Part shown: positions 5,334-62,141 of the stretch, piece by piece
How the letters are laid out: every line of letters begins with the position of its first letter
How positions within the stretch are numbered: the first letter of the stretch is position 1
Assembly (NCBI RefSeq): GCF_014696715.1
Contig: NZ_JACJQO010000001.1
Coordinates: forward strand, 310,001-374,000
Direction: 5' to 3'
DNA: 64,000 nt
Source: Pseudanabaena sp. FACHB-2040
GTDB lineage: Bacteria; Cyanobacteriota; Cyanobacteriia; Phormidesmidales; Phormidesmidaceae
Position numbers and translations under genes: made by a program
Notes under the pieces: generated by a model
What the model saw: the letters and a program-made list of their open reading frames with translations, nothing else
Told to the model about the DNA's origin: nothing
Databases searched by the model: none

Positions 5334-5489
5334 ACCAAAAATTCTCTCGCAAAAGTCCTCAAAAATACACTCTGCGAAAACGAATTGCGCCGTAGAATAA
5401 TTCGGATGCCAGCGCTTTGCCTCAAATTCTGTTCGAAATAGGGGTTTTTGCGCGGGTTCAGTTATCCGTCTTCCGCAAAGGAGTGCCCC

Positions 5490-7199
<1,710 letters not shown>

Positions 7200-56200: not shown

Positions 56201-56420
56201 ACGTTGTGCATTGAGTACATTGCAAAGTGCGCTGTGCAAATAAGGTGTTGCTCTATGTTCAGAACGTTGTGCATTGACGATAGGCTCTATTGAGCGGTCT
56301 ACACGTTATGTTGAGTGCTCTACATAACGTGTTGAGGCTTTAACATAAGCTATTGAGCTGTCACAACGTTCTTGCGGGTCGTCACAACGCCCTTGCGAGT
56401 CCTCACAACGCCCTATTGCC
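56201..56420. repeat. 21-bp-periodic degenerate tandem repeat array
   Basis: Six contiguous 21-base units run from 56295 to 56420 (unit starts 56295, 56316, 56337, 56358, 56379, 56400). The first three share ACGT/AACG-like middles and TTGAG ends, the last three share CACAACG-CC(C)TTGC-G. The word ACGTTGTGCATTGA recurs at 56201 and 56264, exactly 63 bases apart. Read leftwards, the last units give heptads such as GRCEDSQ, GRCDDPQ, ERCDSSI, with stops, so no intact gene is present. Confidence 0.7.
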
Positions 56421-56445: not shown

Positions 56446-56895
56446 CTACTGCAAAGACTCAACCTGATCGTCAGGTGGGGGATGTCGGCCAATAGCCAAA
56501 TCCGTTGCTCGGATGGCGAGGATGCGATCGCGATTTAGCGCTAAAGCTGTAACAGTTGCTCTGCCTGTAGGAGTTAGCCCAACGACCTCTAAGAGATCAG
56601 ATGACCAGGCAAAGTGATCATGCCATCGCTGCAATCGAGGATTAAACAGGGCAACTTCAACGCCTGTTTGAAAATCAGTTACCGCTTGACGATTTGACTT
56701 GCGCCGGTTGCAGTGAAAACAAGCCAAGGCAAGATTTTCTAGATCGTCAGAACCTCCTGCCGTTAGGGGGATGATATGGTCGATAGTGAACTGAACATAT
56801 TGCCATTGTTCGGAAGCGTGGCAATACTCACAAAGGAATTTAGCTCTTCGACGCACCTGCCGTTGCATTTCAGCAGGAATCTTCTTTCGAGCCAT
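56446..56895 (-). CDS. HNH endonuclease
   Basis: 149 residues. A typical HNH nuclease with treble-clef zinc site: CEYC near the start, then FTIDHIIPLTAGGSDDLENL and ALACFHCNRRKS (Asp-His then Asn-His box and the second Cys pair). HNH proteins of this size and spacing cut DNA in phage, homing and defence contexts. The C-terminal half (about residues 80-149) is a separate alpha/beta segment without a known domain. The gene is last in a leftward four-gene unit and begins 2 bases after the stop of the preceding small gene. Confidence 0.9.
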   Translation of the reverse strand: MARKKIPAEMQRQVRRRAKFLCEYCHASEQWQYVQFTIDHIIPLTAGGSDDLENLALACFHCNRRKSNRQAVTDFQTGVEVALFNPRLQRWHDHFAWSSDLLEVVGLTPTGRATVTALALNRDRILAIRATDLAIGRHPPPDDQVESLQ

Positions 56896-56897
56896 AT

Positions 56898-57176
56898 TTA
56901 CGAATCCTGTTTAGAACTCTCTAAAATGAGGTTCCTAACGGTACGATTCACGAAGCTAAGATAATCATCAATTTCCTCATACCGATCTAACTCGGCTTCT
57001 TCAGCTTCGTCCAAAGCAGCCTCTTGGTGCTTATCTAAAAGCTCCTGGATTCGATCTTGAATGGTTTTAGAAGCTCGAAAAATAGGAATACCCTCTTCCA
57101 AAGCAATGCTGACAGCACCCTCAATAGGAAGAGAACCGGGAAGATTGTTAAGTGTTGGCAAGGATGGAATAGCCAT
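56898..57176 (-). CDS. Small acidic protein paired with the HNH gene
   Basis: 92 residues. Conserved cyanobacterial architecture: LNNLPGSLPIEGAVSIALEE, then GIPIFRASKTIQDRIQELL and the strongly acidic EAALDEAEEAELDRYEEIDD, ending in SFVNRTVRNLI. I recognise the same pairing, small protein directly upstream of an HNH nuclease, from other cyanobacteria. It could be an antitoxin-like or adaptor partner of the nuclease. No membrane segment. Function not known. Confidence 0.75.
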   Translation of the reverse strand: MAIPSLPTLNNLPGSLPIEGAVSIALEEGIPIFRASKTIQDRIQELLDKHQEAALDEAEEAELDRYEEIDDYLSFVNRTVRNLILESSKQDS

Positions 57177-57190
57177 GACAGAGAATTTAA

Positions 57191-59389
57191 TTAAGAGCTT
57201 TGACTAATAAGAGTGGCAAATTGCCTATCACTACGAATGGTATCGAAATCTGAGTCGGTCTTTGCCATTTCTCGGTATTTAGAATCTAGAGAGACAGCTT
57301 GCTGTAAAAAATAAATAGCGTTTTTAGGATCTCCCTGTAGCCCGTAGCAACAGGCTTTGTTATACAGGGGGCTAGGGTCATCGGGTTTGATTTCGAGCGC
57401 TTTTTCATACGATGCGATCGCATCTTCGTAGCGGCCCAAGTAGCCTAGCGCAATGCCCCGATGGTCCCAAGCTTGGTGAAAGTCGGGTTTGATTTCGAGC
57501 GCTTTTTCATATGATGCGATTGCATTTTTATGGCAATATAAATAGTTGAGCGCAACGCCCTGATAATCCCAAGCTTGGTAGAAGTCGGGTTTGATTTCGA
57601 GCGCTTTTTCATACGATGCGATTGCATCTTCATAGCGGCCCAGATCAATCAAGGCATTACCCCGATTGCTCCAAGCTTCGTAGTCATCGGAATTAGTTTT
57701 AAGAGCTTTGTCAAACGATTTAACTGCATCTTCATGACGCCCTAAACAGTTAAGTGCAAAACCCCAATGCCCCCAGGCTGGGTGAAAGCCTGGATTAATT
57801 TCGAGCGCTTTGTCAAACGATTCAACTGCATCTTCATAGCGACCTACATAGGTTAGTGCAATACCACGATGATTCCACGCTGTATGGAAGCCTGGATTAA
57901 TTTCAAGGGCTTTATCAAACGATTTAACTGCATCTTCATAGCGGCCCAGGCCCATCAATGCGTTACCCCGATTGATCCAAACTGCATAATCACCAAAACT
58001 TGCTTTAAGGGCTTTGTCAAATGATTTGATTGCATCTTCATGACGTCCCAGGTTTACTAGCGCATTACCCCGATTGTTCCAGGCTTCGTGGAAGTTAGAA
58101 TTAACTTTGAGAGCTTTGTCAAATGATTTAATTGCATCTTCATGACGTCCCAGGTTGATTAGTGTATTGCCCCAGTTATTCCAGGCTTCGTGGAAGTTGG
58201 GATTAATTTTAAGGGCTTTGTCAAACGATTTAACCGCATCATCATAGCGCCCCAGATTGACTAGCGCAAATCCTCGATTATTCCAAACTATACAATCATT
58301 GGGCCTAATTTCGAGGGCTTTGTCGTACGATAAAATCGCGTCATCATAGCGCCCCAGATTGACTAGCGCAAATCCTCGATTATTCCAGACCTCATAACCA
58401 TTGGGCCTAATTTCGAGAGCTCTGTTAAATGATTCAATTGCATCTTCATAGAGTTCCAGACCGACTAGCGCATTGCCCCGACTGTTCCAAACTGCATAAT
58501 CATCAGGTCTGATTTTGAGGGCTTCACCATACGATGAGATCGCGTCCCCATAACGGTTTAGTTCACTTAATGCAATGCCTCGGTTGCTCCAGGCTGTATG
58601 AAGATCAGGCTTAATTTCAAGGGCTCTGTCATAAGATGCAATTGCAGCTTCATGGTCTTGAGAGGCTGTAAAAAGATTGCCTTGCTCAAAATAGAGGTTG
58701 ACCTCATCAACACTGTCAGAATAGCCTGCATCTAAAAGCGATTGAATCTCGAAAATTCTTTGGCTTCGCTCAGTTTGAGACCAACTAAGATACTTCTCAT
58801 AAGCTCCCTGTAGCCATATCTCCCGTGATTTTTGGGACAGCTGCTCCGAATCTTCTACGTACTGAAAAATACCAGAGCGCCAATCAAAGAAATCTGGAGC
58901 ACGCTGCACCAAGTATCTAATTGCAAAAACAGGCAGCAAAAAGACCAAGCAAGTACCAAAACTATCTCGAAAGTGTTCGCGCTGCTGGTTTAGATTTATC
59001 AAGATAGGGGGAACACCATGCCAGCTATAGGTATAGATCTTCTCGCTGCTCCAACCAAGCTGTTTTTTGGTTTCCTCGTAGTCGTAGAGCGAATATTCTA
59101 GTCCTTGAATAAACAGCACTTCGGTAGAAGTATGTTGGTCTAGAAAGCACTTAATTTGCTTGAAAACGTTGCCGTCTTCTATCGGCTTCTCAAACTTAAG
59201 AACTTCTGTCTTTTTAGTGGTTAAGTCTTTGCAAATTCGCTGGATAATTTTGTCGCTACCAAAGGGCGTGCACTGCACAAAAAACAGGCCAAACCCTTGA
59301 GTACGCCGCAGACCATTCAGCAGCGCCTGATATTCCTCTTCAGGATCTGCTTTGAGGTCATCTTCGTCCCAGTCGAGCAGGTTAGTCAT
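57191..59389 (-). CDS. Pseudo-ATPase/TPR protein of the four-gene unit
   Basis: 732 residues. Residues 1 to about 220 resemble the P-loop domain of STAND-type regulators (GLFFVQCTPFGSDKIIQRIC, STEVLFIQGLE and the later LINLNQQREHFRDSFGTCLV then APDFFDWRSGIF), but the Walker A is degenerate (CTPFGSDKI instead of GxxGxGK[ST]). From about residue 235 follow 13 tandem tetratricopeptide repeats of 34 residues (YEDAI-S-x-KALEI-P and AWxNRGxAL blocks) and a poor fourteenth. Neighbouring repeats are nearly identical at the DNA level with a 102-base period. It starts 2 bases after the stop of the ATPase gene upstream. Probably a ligand- or partner-sensing scaffold. Confidence 0.85.
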   Translation of the reverse strand: MTNLLDWDEDDLKADPEEEYQALLNGLRRTQGFGLFFVQCTPFGSDKIIQRICKDLTTKKTEVLKFEKPIEDGNVFKQIKCFLDQHTSTEVLFIQGLEYSLYDYEETKKQLGWSSEKIYTYSWHGVPPILINLNQQREHFRDSFGTCLVFLLPVFAIRYLVQRAPDFFDWRSGIFQYVEDSEQLSQKSREIWLQGAYEKYLSWSQTERSQRIFEIQSLLDAGYSDSVDEVNLYFEQGNLFTASQDHEAAIASYDRALEIKPDLHTAWSNRGIALSELNRYGDAISSYGEALKIRPDDYAVWNSRGNALVGLELYEDAIESFNRALEIRPNGYEVWNNRGFALVNLGRYDDAILSYDKALEIRPNDCIVWNNRGFALVNLGRYDDAVKSFDKALKINPNFHEAWNNWGNTLINLGRHEDAIKSFDKALKVNSNFHEAWNNRGNALVNLGRHEDAIKSFDKALKASFGDYAVWINRGNALMGLGRYEDAVKSFDKALEINPGFHTAWNHRGIALTYVGRYEDAVESFDKALEINPGFHPAWGHWGFALNCLGRHEDAVKSFDKALKTNSDDYEAWSNRGNALIDLGRYEDAIASYEKALEIKPDFYQAWDYQGVALNYLYCHKNAIASYEKALEIKPDFHQAWDHRGIALGYLGRYEDAIASYEKALEIKPDDPSPLYNKACCYGLQGDPKNAIYFLQQAVSLDSKYREMAKTDSDFDTIRSDRQFATLISQSS

Positions 59390-59391
59390 GG

Positions 59392-60720
59392 TTACGAAGC
59401 AGTTAGAGCAGCTTGGGCAGCCTTAAACTCAGGGATATCTTTGATCAGCGGATGCACGTCGTACCAACACTTGAGATCGTCGTTCTCATCAAAGTAGCGA
59501 TACTCCATAATGCAGCGGCGAAAGAGCAGGTCGCGGTAAGCTTCTTCATTTTCAATGGTGCGAGTCTTTGCCACTTGAGCCAGTGCAGCCCACTGGTCTT
59601 TCTCCACCGTGCGACGGTAGGTATCTTGAGTTTCAGCAATGGCACGACGCACCGCGCGGGTAGGAATAGGCAGCGCATTGGTGCGGTTCAGCGCCTCCTT
59701 AATCAACAGCAGCAGCTCCCGCACATGGCCGCCGCTAGCAAGGCAAACCTGCTCTGCCACGTCTGGCCCCTCAAAAACGTCGCGCTCCAGGCTGACCTCA
59801 GGAATGTAAGGCGCAATGCGGCGAATCAGCACCTCCTGAATTTTTGCCACCCCCGGCGGGTGTATCGCTCCATCCGGCGTTTGAATCATGATCATCGGCA
59901 GCAGGTTGGGGTTGCCGTAGATCTCCTTCAGGTCATTAGCCCGATTGGAATACACCATCGAAATCGGGATGGTGTAAATCAGGTGACAGTCTAGCCCCTT
60001 AAGCTGCTCAAAGCGGTCTAGAAATATCTCATCGTGGTTGCTGCGGCCATTGTCATTGTGAATCGGCACAATCCGATCTAAGTTGTCAGCGATGACAACA
60101 ATGTGTTTCTTATCGGAGGGCAGATTACGTCTGCCATCTTCAATAAATTGGTTCAGGGCATTGACCAGCGTGACCGTGTGTGGGTTCACCAAATCTCGAA
60201 TCTTGCTGCGCTCGCTGGGCACCGCCCGAATTGCGGTGGTGATCTCAGCAAATTGGCTGGCCAGCACCTTCACATCCAACGAATCTAGCTCAATTCGGGT
60301 TTGACCGATGTCATGAAGCGCCTGCCCCCGCTCTCGAAACCAGCTAATTAGCGGTTTTGGGTCAGCATTTTTGAGTTCTTCTAACAAGTGCCGCGTACAG
60401 GCCAGCAAAATATCGGTATATTGCACATCCTGCGGGTCGATGTCGCCATCGTCTCCCACCGCCGGAAAGTACACTACCAGGCAGCCCTTTTCCTCCAGGT
60501 CTTTTTTGAGCCGTAGCAGCTCCGTCGATTTGCCTGCACCCCGGTGCCCTGTGTAAAGCTGGCAGGTGTAGCGGTTAGAGCGTAGGATCTCCGGCCCCAG
60601 ATCCATCAGCACATTAGCCTCGCCCCGCTCAGCCTCACAATCTACATAGGCCGGATCGCCCGGCTCCAAAGGCTTGAAGGGATCAACCGCATTGTAAATG
60701 TCGGTCAAAACATCACTCAT
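59392..60720 (-). CDS. P-loop ATPase of the four-gene unit
   Basis: 442 residues from the ATG opening MSDVLTDIYN (an extension to 60807 has no better start). Intact Walker A GHRGAGKST near residue 58 and a Walker B-like strand HIVVIADNLDR. It then has GLDCHLIYTIPISMVYSNRA, a sensor-type region, and SGGHVRELLLLIKEALNR near the end, all resembling STAND/AAA ATPases of the KAP-like type. It is the first gene of the unit; downstream TPR, small and HNH genes follow with gaps of 2, 14 and 2 bases. A hairpin terminator separates it from the genes upstream. Confidence 0.85.
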   Translation of the reverse strand: MSDVLTDIYNAVDPFKPLEPGDPAYVDCEAERGEANVLMDLGPEILRSNRYTCQLYTGHRGAGKSTELLRLKKDLEEKGCLVVYFPAVGDDGDIDPQDVQYTDILLACTRHLLEELKNADPKPLISWFRERGQALHDIGQTRIELDSLDVKVLASQFAEITTAIRAVPSERSKIRDLVNPHTVTLVNALNQFIEDGRRNLPSDKKHIVVIADNLDRIVPIHNDNGRSNHDEIFLDRFEQLKGLDCHLIYTIPISMVYSNRANDLKEIYGNPNLLPMIMIQTPDGAIHPPGVAKIQEVLIRRIAPYIPEVSLERDVFEGPDVAEQVCLASGGHVRELLLLIKEALNRTNALPIPTRAVRRAIAETQDTYRRTVEKDQWAALAQVAKTRTIENEEAYRDLLFRRCIMEYRYFDENDDLKCWYDVHPLIKDIPEFKAAQAALTAS

Positions 60721-60802: not shown

Positions 60803-60836
60803 AGCAAGCCCAGGTTGGTTACAACCTGGGCTTGCT
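60803..60836 (-). terminator. Intrinsic-terminator hairpin after the pirin operon
   Basis: AGCAAGCCCAGGTTG (60803-60817) and CAACCTGGGCTTGCT (60822-60836) form a perfect 15-bp stem with a 4-base loop. On the minus strand it lies 5 bases after the stop of the gene at 60842 and is followed by GTTTCTGTC, a weak U-tract. It insulates the ATPase unit from the pirin genes. Confidence 0.75.
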
Positions 60837-60841
60837 CAGAA

Positions 60842-61255
60842 CTAGCTATTTGCTCCTGCCGCTAACAGCGTGGCGACATCTGCATGAGCAAAGACCACAT
60901 CTGGGTTTTGCTGCAAGGCGGCATCGTACTTCATAGCGAAGGTATCACCCAACTCATCCGGGCGAAGCAGAGCGCGAATAGATGCGAGGATTGCCGCAGC
61001 ATCTTCCGTCCCTGGCTCATCGGCCTGCAGCAGATCGTCAACCTGCACAATCTGCTCCGAGAGCGGGTGCAGCCACGCAAACTGATCGTGGTGAATTGCC
61101 AGCTGCAGCAGTTCGCCTTTAGAAACCTGTCCGCGCACCTTTTCATAGGTCAAGCGCTCAGTGTTTAGCAACAGTTGATGCAGGCGCAGCAGCTTCAGAC
61201 GCAGCTCGCTGAGCAGCTGATGTTGATTAATGCGCTGTTGTAGGATGTTAAGCAT
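60842..61255 (-). CDS. Conserved protein translationally coupled to pirin
   Basis: 137 residues from the ATG at 61255, which overlaps the pirin stop by 8 bases (ATGCTTAA). It is a helical, soluble protein: LLSELRLKLLRLHQLLLNTE, KGELLQLAIHHDQFAWLHPL and ASIRALLRPDELGDTFAMKY. I do not recognise a named domain; relatives that follow pirin genes in cyanobacteria exist to my memory. The function is likely linked to the pirin protein because of the coupling. Confidence 0.7.
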   Translation of the reverse strand: MLNILQQRINQHQLLSELRLKLLRLHQLLLNTERLTYEKVRGQVSKGELLQLAIHHDQFAWLHPLSEQIVQVDDLLQADEPGTEDAAAILASIRALLRPDELGDTFAMKYDAALQQNPDVVFAHADVATLLAAGANS

Positions 61256-62141
61256 GGATTTGTCCCATCTTTCCATTGCGATAGTCTTCAATTGCCTGAA
61301 TAATTTCGGCTTCGGTATTCATCACGAAGGGGCCATAGCGCACCACCGGCTCATTTAGCGGCACACCTGCGATCAGCAATAGATCGAGGGGCTGGGCAGC
61401 ATCGGCAGGGTTGGCTATGGCAACCTCCCCCCCATCCTGAGCAAAGATCACCATCTGCCCATCCTCACCCCGTTCCTGCTCCGCCCCAAACAGGCCCGAT
61501 CCATCCAGCAAATAGGCAAAAGCGTTGTACTCCGGCGGCACCGGCTGAACTAATGAGGCCCCCGGCTGCAGCGTCAGGTGCAGATAGATAATCGGCGTGC
61601 GCGTCTCGATCACCGCTTTCGCCCCAAGAGATTCCCCAGCAATCACCCGCACCGTCACCCCGCCATCTGCCGTTTGCGCCACCGGAATTTTCGCCGCTGG
61701 GATGTCCTGATAGCGAGGGGCAATCATCTTGTCGTGTCGGGGCAAGTTCACCCATAGCTGAATACCGTGCAGCCGTCCTCCCGTGCGGGTAAATTCGGCC
61801 TCTGGCATTTCAGAATGCACCACCCCTGCCCCTGCCGTCATCCACTGCACATCGCCCGGATTTAGCAGCCCGGCATGGCCCTCAGAGTCCTTGTGCTCTA
61901 GGCGTCCGTCTAATATGTAGCTCACAGTTTCAAACCCACGGTGGGGATGATCGGGTGCACCCTTCGCCTGACCTGGCCCTAAGTCCATCGGCCCAAGTTC
62001 ATCTAGCAAGAGAAAAGGGTCAAATTCTGAGAAGCTGCTCTTGGGGAACGGGCGGCGCACCCGAAACCCTGCCCCTTCTAGCGTCTCTACACTGTTCACG
62101 ATTCCGGCAATAGTTCGTAGCGTTTGAGTTTGCACGGTCAT
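61248..62141 (-). CDS. Pirin-family cupin protein
   Basis: 297 residues. The bicupin pirin fold with the metal site in PDHPHRGFETVSYILDG (His ligands) and GAGVVHSEMPE (His, Glu), then FTRTGGRLHGIQLWVNLP. Members are iron-binding and have quercetinase or redox-sensing transcription-cofactor roles in different organisms. The gene is divergent from a PadR-type repressor, with two inverted repeats between them, so it may be regulated by it in response to an aromatic or electrophilic compound. Confidence 0.93.
   Translation of the reverse strand: MTVQTQTLRTIAGIVNSVETLEGAGFRVRRPFPKSSFSEFDPFLLLDELGPMDLGPGQAKGAPDHPHRGFETVSYILDGRLEHKDSEGHAGLLNPGDVQWMTAGAGVVHSEMPEAEFTRTGGRLHGIQLWVNLPRHDKMIAPRYQDIPAAKIPVAQTADGGVTVRVIAGESLGAKAVIETRTPIIYLHLTLQPGASLVQPVPPEYNAFAYLLDGSGLFGAEQERGEDGQMVIFAQDGGEVAIANPADAAQPLDLLLIAGVPLNEPVVRYGPFVMNTEAEIIQAIEDYRNGKMGQIHA

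Follow-up and report, generated by a model that had tools for sequence, protein, structure and literature searches.

Four leftward genes lie almost end to end in a 64,000-nucleotide stretch of the cyanobacterium Pseudanabaena sp. FACHB-2040 (contig NZ_JACJQO010000001.1, positions 310,001 to 374,000; hereafter the window), and the question raised by this locus is whether they work as one system. A sequence-only reading of the same DNA had proposed that they do, as a defence-like unit in which a P-loop ATPase and a protein with a degenerate P-loop and TPRs form a sensor that controls an HNH nuclease, with a small acidic protein as adaptor or inhibitor. The genome containing the window is 6.28 Mb in size. 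The four genes, their spacings (intergenic gaps of 2, 14 and 2 bases) and their main motifs are as claimed, and the open reading frame (ORF) calls agree (Table 1).

Table 1. Features of the locus, in window coordinates
Feature	Position	Strand	Basis
P-loop ATPase, 442 aa	59392..60720	(-)	ORF, Walker A, predicted fold
Partner protein of 732 aa, with degenerate P-loop domain and TPR array	57191..59389	(-)	ORF, Pfam, alignment, AlphaFold model
Partner N-terminal domain: degenerate P-loop, inactive STAND/AAA+-like; the constant part of the family	58712..59389	(-)	Alignment, structure match
Partner TPR array, 13-14 repeats	57290..58714	(-)	Pfam; tandem DNA repeats of 102 bp
Small acidic protein, 92 aa, pI 4.3, antitoxin-like, in no known family	56898..57176	(-)	ORF, family comparison
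HNH nuclease, 149 aa, toxin-like	56446..56895	(-)	PF01844, conserved residues
Terminator-like hairpin, 15-bp stem, loop of 4	60803..60836	(-)	Between upstream gene and ATPase

The proteins and the boundaries of the locus

The ATPase carries an intact Walker A motif (GHRGAGKST, 60523-60549), and its key glycines and lysine are invariant in an alignment of 23 relatives, which bears out the earlier description. A Walker B-like VIADNLDR, which follows the family pattern of an hhhADNLDR strand, and a sensor-2-like SGGHxR motif are also present. Structure matching of the predicted model (pLDDT 90) placed the protein nearest to ORC/Cdc6, the archaeal ATPase SSO1545, TnsC and mitochondrial mS29/DAP3; the fold match to mS29 (DAP3) has an E-value of 5e-4, and ORC/Cdc6 rank above it. 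Judged by its motifs and its model, the protein is an ORC/Cdc6/DAP3-like P-loop ATPase that is predicted to be active. The Pfam model nSTAND_NTPase5 scored below cut-off in 17 of the 23 family members (best E 6e-5), and the family showed no nSTAND model above the Pfam cut-off and no nSTAND2 match, with the proviso that Pfam may hold no nSTAND2 model. Most genomes of the order (57 of 65) encode relatives of the ATPase, frequently as several paralogues, and a scan of named bacterial genomes returned a single relative, in Leptolyngbya sp. SIOISBB. Sequence searches for relatives of the ATPase, the partner and the small protein among solved structures gave nothing meaningful.

The partner protein had been credited with 13 TPRs and a degenerate P-loop, and both descriptions hold: Pfam finds 13 or 14 repeats depending on the model, and the N-terminal domain has an AAA+-type fold in its AlphaFold model but no GK[ST] in any of the 24 partner domains aligned. 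Lacking this motif, the domain probably cannot bind nucleotide in the ordinary manner. The AlphaFold model (pLDDT 84) matches the AAA+ folds of RAD17-RFC, Hda and ORC (E ~4e-4, probability 0.97-1.0) with TM scores of only 0.3-0.44, and the structural matches of the ATPase and the partner together are modest in this respect (TM 0.3-0.5). Both alignments contain invariant arginines, which may or may not correspond to the arginine finger conserved in both proteins of the nSTAND2 two-gene system. Profile-profile comparison (hhalign) detected no sequence similarity of the partner domain to the ATPase, and a kinship of the two by sequence was rejected. The number of TPRs differs among relatives of the partner. 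Furthermore, third codon positions have a higher AT content in the partner gene than in the adjoining ATPase gene in all 11 loci checked (L061-L082 and window 57191-60720), and a proposal of operon-wide horizontal transfer from GC content alone was dropped for this reason.

Upstream, the locus is bordered by a strong hairpin (-30.8 kcal/mol, z = -6.3), which had been thought to insulate the unit. Its strength stands, while insulation was an interpretation; given that the hairpin lies directly 3' of a co-directional gene (60842-61291), it is most simply the terminator of that gene and most likely marks its end. The ATPase start at the ATG at 60720 is consistent with its homologues, and an alternative, longer TTG start at 60807 would adjoin the hairpin. 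At the other end of the locus, short tandem repeats of 21 bp are found just 3' of the HNH gene (56309-56414).

Two gene pairs and their distribution

The ATPase and its partner are a two-gene unit found cyanobacteria-wide. In about 26 of the 28 order loci nearest to the window with enough sequence, the ATPase gene is immediately followed by a partner gene with the same N-terminal domain. This domain is present in 62 of the 292 genomes of the phylum sample, and the ATPase adjoins the partner in essentially all of the best 30 phylum loci. In L146 and L147 the ATPase lies on the far side of the partner, and longer stretches reveal tandem arrangements. Distant ATPase paralogues (26-35% identity) retain the two-gene plan, with partner C-termini that consist of nSTAND1, with or without WD40, or of other TPR arrays; GT4 and HEPN C-terminal modules were not seen among the partners. 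Thus, the conserved adjacency, the intact Walker A and the AAA+-type folds in both proteins support the idea of a STAND-like pair of ATPase and TPR sensor.

Several loci depart from the simple plan. ATPase and partner genes stand in tandem in L229, L233, L236, L237 and L238, and in L233, L236 and L237 there is an extra partner of ~200 aa with the P-loop domain and without TPRs. The genome containing the window itself holds a distant paralogous pair (L091:4602-10323, in G000:C6:227500-241000), comprising an ATPase of 479 aa and an nSTAND1 protein of 981 aa. An opposite-strand gene beside that pair has a borderline match to a caspase domain (Peptidase_C14), just below cut-off.

The second pair consists of the small gene, which comes first, and the HNH gene 2 bases behind it. 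The HNH protein matches PF01844 (E = 1e-16), and its zinc cysteines (C22/C25/C59/C62), D39-H40, N54 and N63 are invariant in 14 relatives; compared by sequence with solved structures, it finds only generic HNH/Cas9/IscB domains. The small protein matched no catalogued family and no known antitoxin family in profile searches. The median pI is 4.5 in the small family vs 7.7 in the HNH family. The small gene lies directly upstream of the HNH gene in 63 of the 64 best HNH matches (>198 bits, 292 genomes), a ratio that may be somewhat inflated because only HNH genes with a small neighbour went into the HNH profile. In the sole remaining case, L156, the two genes are separated by a putative transposase ORF (L156:1501-3246). 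About half of the ~121 small genes in the 292 genomes have no HNH gene, and of two orthologous loci with common flanks (L154 and L155), L155 has lost the HNH gene and retained the small one. An HNH gene that nearly always has a small neighbour, together with a small gene that is often solitary, is a pattern typical of toxin-antitoxin (TA) pairs. By this pattern of sequences the two genes are a putative autonomous TA-like pair, and the suggestion that the small protein inhibits the nuclease gains support from the same antitoxin-like asymmetry.

Within the order and the phylum the small-HNH pair lies in unrelated genomic contexts, patchily and with changing neighbours, and a Chondrocystis plasmid carries a copy. 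A search for phage-encoded HNH relatives found none. In two loci (L165:1-3238 and L166:1-3238) a small-gene homologue seemingly lies inside a NACHT/STAND-like gene, as if a TA cassette had been inserted, and in L165 a PIN-like gene also lies within that gene; the NACHT and PIN labels were read from the sequence rather than from a profile search.

The two pairs rarely meet. Among ~30 order loci, the small-HNH pair adjoins the ATPase-TPR pair in 2, namely the window and L064 (G049), which has the same four-gene order, and in L079 (G004) the small gene stands alone behind the ATPase-TPR pair. In the 292-genome sample no close small gene was found near a partner gene except the window's own, and L242 has a distant version of the small-HNH pair behind a partner gene; because the phylum was searched as a sample only, these and the other phylum counts are estimates. 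In a tree of the small and HNH sequences the window falls outside a clade (support 100/98) that contains L064 and L079, which implies that the four-gene combination arose more than once or was often broken up. The adjacent cases have different flanking genes, and among defence-family profiles none matches the four-gene set as a system. The sequence-only reading had itself allowed that the unit would be a chance neighbourhood if its two halves usually occurred apart. The co-occurrence of the four families was checked, and the halves do usually occur apart, so the claim of one system fails. Each gene, the ATPase-TPR pair and the small-HNH pair are beyond chance; the fixed four-gene set is not.

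Toxin-antitoxin modules behind the partner gene

A TA module of some kind lies directly downstream of 17 of 59 informative partner genes vs ~5 of 326 control genes (Fisher p = 2e-11), a frequency ~20 times that behind ordinary genes; the TA labels behind these counts combine Pfam matches with sequences read by eye, on naive gene calls, and some of the loci are related by descent. The controls were long ORFs from 40 stretches of 20 kb in the same genomes, picked arbitrarily at round coordinates and put through the same pipeline. After removal of the small-HNH cases and collapse of related loci, the p-value is still 2e-6. The modules lie on the partner's strand and, besides the small-HNH cases, represent HicAB (L063), RelBE-type (L069, L072), VapBC/PIN (L070, L075, L217, L220), Phd-PemK (L225), UPF0175 (L212, L213, L215) and DUF4258-DUF2283 (L239, L251) pairs or families. 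The small genes behind partners matched 16 Pfam families, every one of them TA-type or HNH; the control set matched 56 families, and among the 25 listed 3 are TA-type and 22 are not.

Other positions and other genes gave low counts. A TA module was found upstream of the ATPase in 1 of 57 cases, behind ~1 of 20 TPR genes without an ATPase (mostly one orthologous family) and behind ~1 of 16 distant ATPase/partner paralogues. Set against these counts and the controls, the downstream association is strong and one-sided. The remaining 42 of the 59 partner genes have no TA module behind them, so the ATPase-partner module does not need one. Of the link first proposed between the two halves of the locus, the fixed set is therefore lost, while an association of the pair with TA modules in general is far from random.

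The locus is thus probably a mosaic, in which a STAND-like ATPase-partner switch stands beside a self-sufficient TA-like pair in a slot that is recurrently filled by TA modules. The ATP-binding ORC/DAP3-type ATPase would probably assemble with the partner's P-loop domain, which lacks the nucleotide motif, and the fast-changing TPR array of the partner may sense a protein or peptide ligand. The acidic small protein would restrain the HNH nuclease. The slot directly behind the partner appears to have been filled repeatedly by unrelated TA modules, and here the small-HNH pair would be its occupant; if the switch and the TA pair are coupled at all, that coupling is something we infer.

What keeps TA modules in this slot can be explained in more than one way. 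The chances seem evenly balanced that the slot is an insertion hot spot. On this reading the 3' end of the partner gene would receive or retain TA cassettes because it is tolerant, repeat-rich or under selection for keeping the locus, and the cassettes would have no functional link to the switch. The TA families are unrelated and come and go among relatives, as a landing site would predict, and the small gene also turns up within the seeming NACHT gene of L165/L166. The third-position GC of the small (0.36) and HNH (0.41) genes, compared with 0.62 for the ATPase, would likewise suggest a recent arrival; however, the partner gene is also low in third-position GC in 11 of 11 loci, which makes base composition weak evidence for this. 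The hot spot is further opposed by the few TA modules behind the distant paralogues and behind TPR-repeat genes without an ATPase, although the latter comparison is weak, being dominated by one orthologous family.

Alternatively, the switch may sense invasion or stress and control whichever TA nuclease lies behind it, perhaps through binding or breakdown of the antitoxin, and the two modules would then cooperate wherever both are present. Such an arrangement would account for why TA modules from unrelated families are so strongly enriched on one side only, immediately behind the partner and on its strand, and STAND systems with variable effector parts have been described (PMC8195603, PMC7159879). 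However, 70% of ATPase-partner pairs have no TA module, related loci have different modules or none, and TA pairs, small-HNH above all, also live alone elsewhere, so we regard control by the switch as unlikely. Equally doubtful is a cyanobacteria-wide bipartite STAND-like switch whose plug-in effectors are TA modules, exchanged among six or more unrelated families (the uncatalogued small/HNH pair being one) at a constant position downstream. That all four genes form a dedicated defence system, in which the ATPase and TPR sensor gate the HNH effector and the small protein is adaptor or inhibitor, is very improbable: the recurrence of the gene order in G049 and the lone small gene behind the pair in G004 speak for it, but the separation of the two pairs in the great majority of loci largely refutes it as a conserved set, and neither the tree nor the flanking genes unite the adjacent cases.

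Comparison with described systems

The closest description of the ATPase-partner pair, likened by description and not by alignment, is the nSTAND2 two-gene system, in which an active and an eroded STAND P-loop gene are adjacent and the eroded one carries, by fusion, a C-terminal module that varies (Kaur et al., 2021; PMC8195603). nSTAND2 is described as kin of DAP3, CR-ATPase and RNA12 (PMC8195603), and DAP3 appears among the fold matches of the ATPase here. The pair likewise comprises two adjacent genes with P-loop modules, one with an intact Walker A and one without GK[ST], and its inactive domain is fused to variable C-termini (TPR, nSTAND1, WD40). However, these C-termini are TPR or nSTAND1/WD40 instead of the GT4 or HEPN of nSTAND2, the best fold matches are to ORC/Cdc6, no nSTAND Pfam model scores above cut-off, and TA modules lie downstream. 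In the MoxR-vWA-iSTAND ternary system, which is common in cyanobacteria, an inactive STAND domain acts together with an active AAA+ protein (2020; PMC7159879). The locus shares with it an inactive STAND-type domain beside an active ATPase, also in cyanobacteria, but contains no vWA or MoxR domain in the four-gene unit, and for most related loci only the beginnings of the neighbouring sequences were read.

Type II toxin-antitoxin modules have been surveyed by Makarova et al. (2009; PMC2701414). The small-HNH pair resembles them in having two small adjacent genes, the acidic one first and the nuclease second, in its mobile and patchy occurrence and in a first gene that is often solitary; it differs in that the putative toxin is HNH-type and the small protein lies outside known antitoxin families. 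The term "HNH" is absent from the main text of that survey and of a Synechocystis survey (PMC4963859). Septu (PtuA/PtuB) also combines an ATPase with an HNH protein, and the HNH protein here matches PtuB profiles (E 5e-11), mostly through the common HNH fold. In contrast to Septu, the ATPase has no PtuA match and the constant neighbour of the HNH gene is the small gene; identity with Septu was ruled out, given that the ATPase is not PtuA and the match to PtuB is weak. In the open literature we found no paper on an HNH/small TA pair or an ATPase-TPR pair in cyanobacteria, nor on TA modules behind an ATPase-partner switch, and such absence is weak evidence.

If the TA slot is functional, a sensor switch would be borrowing ready-made TA pairs as effectors, and the debated purpose of chromosomal TA modules could be tested in a single type of locus, where nature has already made many swaps. 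Should it be a landing site only, the locus still points to a candidate HNH toxin-antitoxin family that is widespread in cyanobacteria, and to a two-gene STAND-like family whose sensor ends are exchangeable.

Elsewhere in the window, the Rfam model 5_ureB_sRNA matches positions 5645-5931 on the reverse strand with 138.7 bits, antisense to an ORF at 5448-7199(+) that is probably a urease gene, and this match may reflect only conserved coding sequence.
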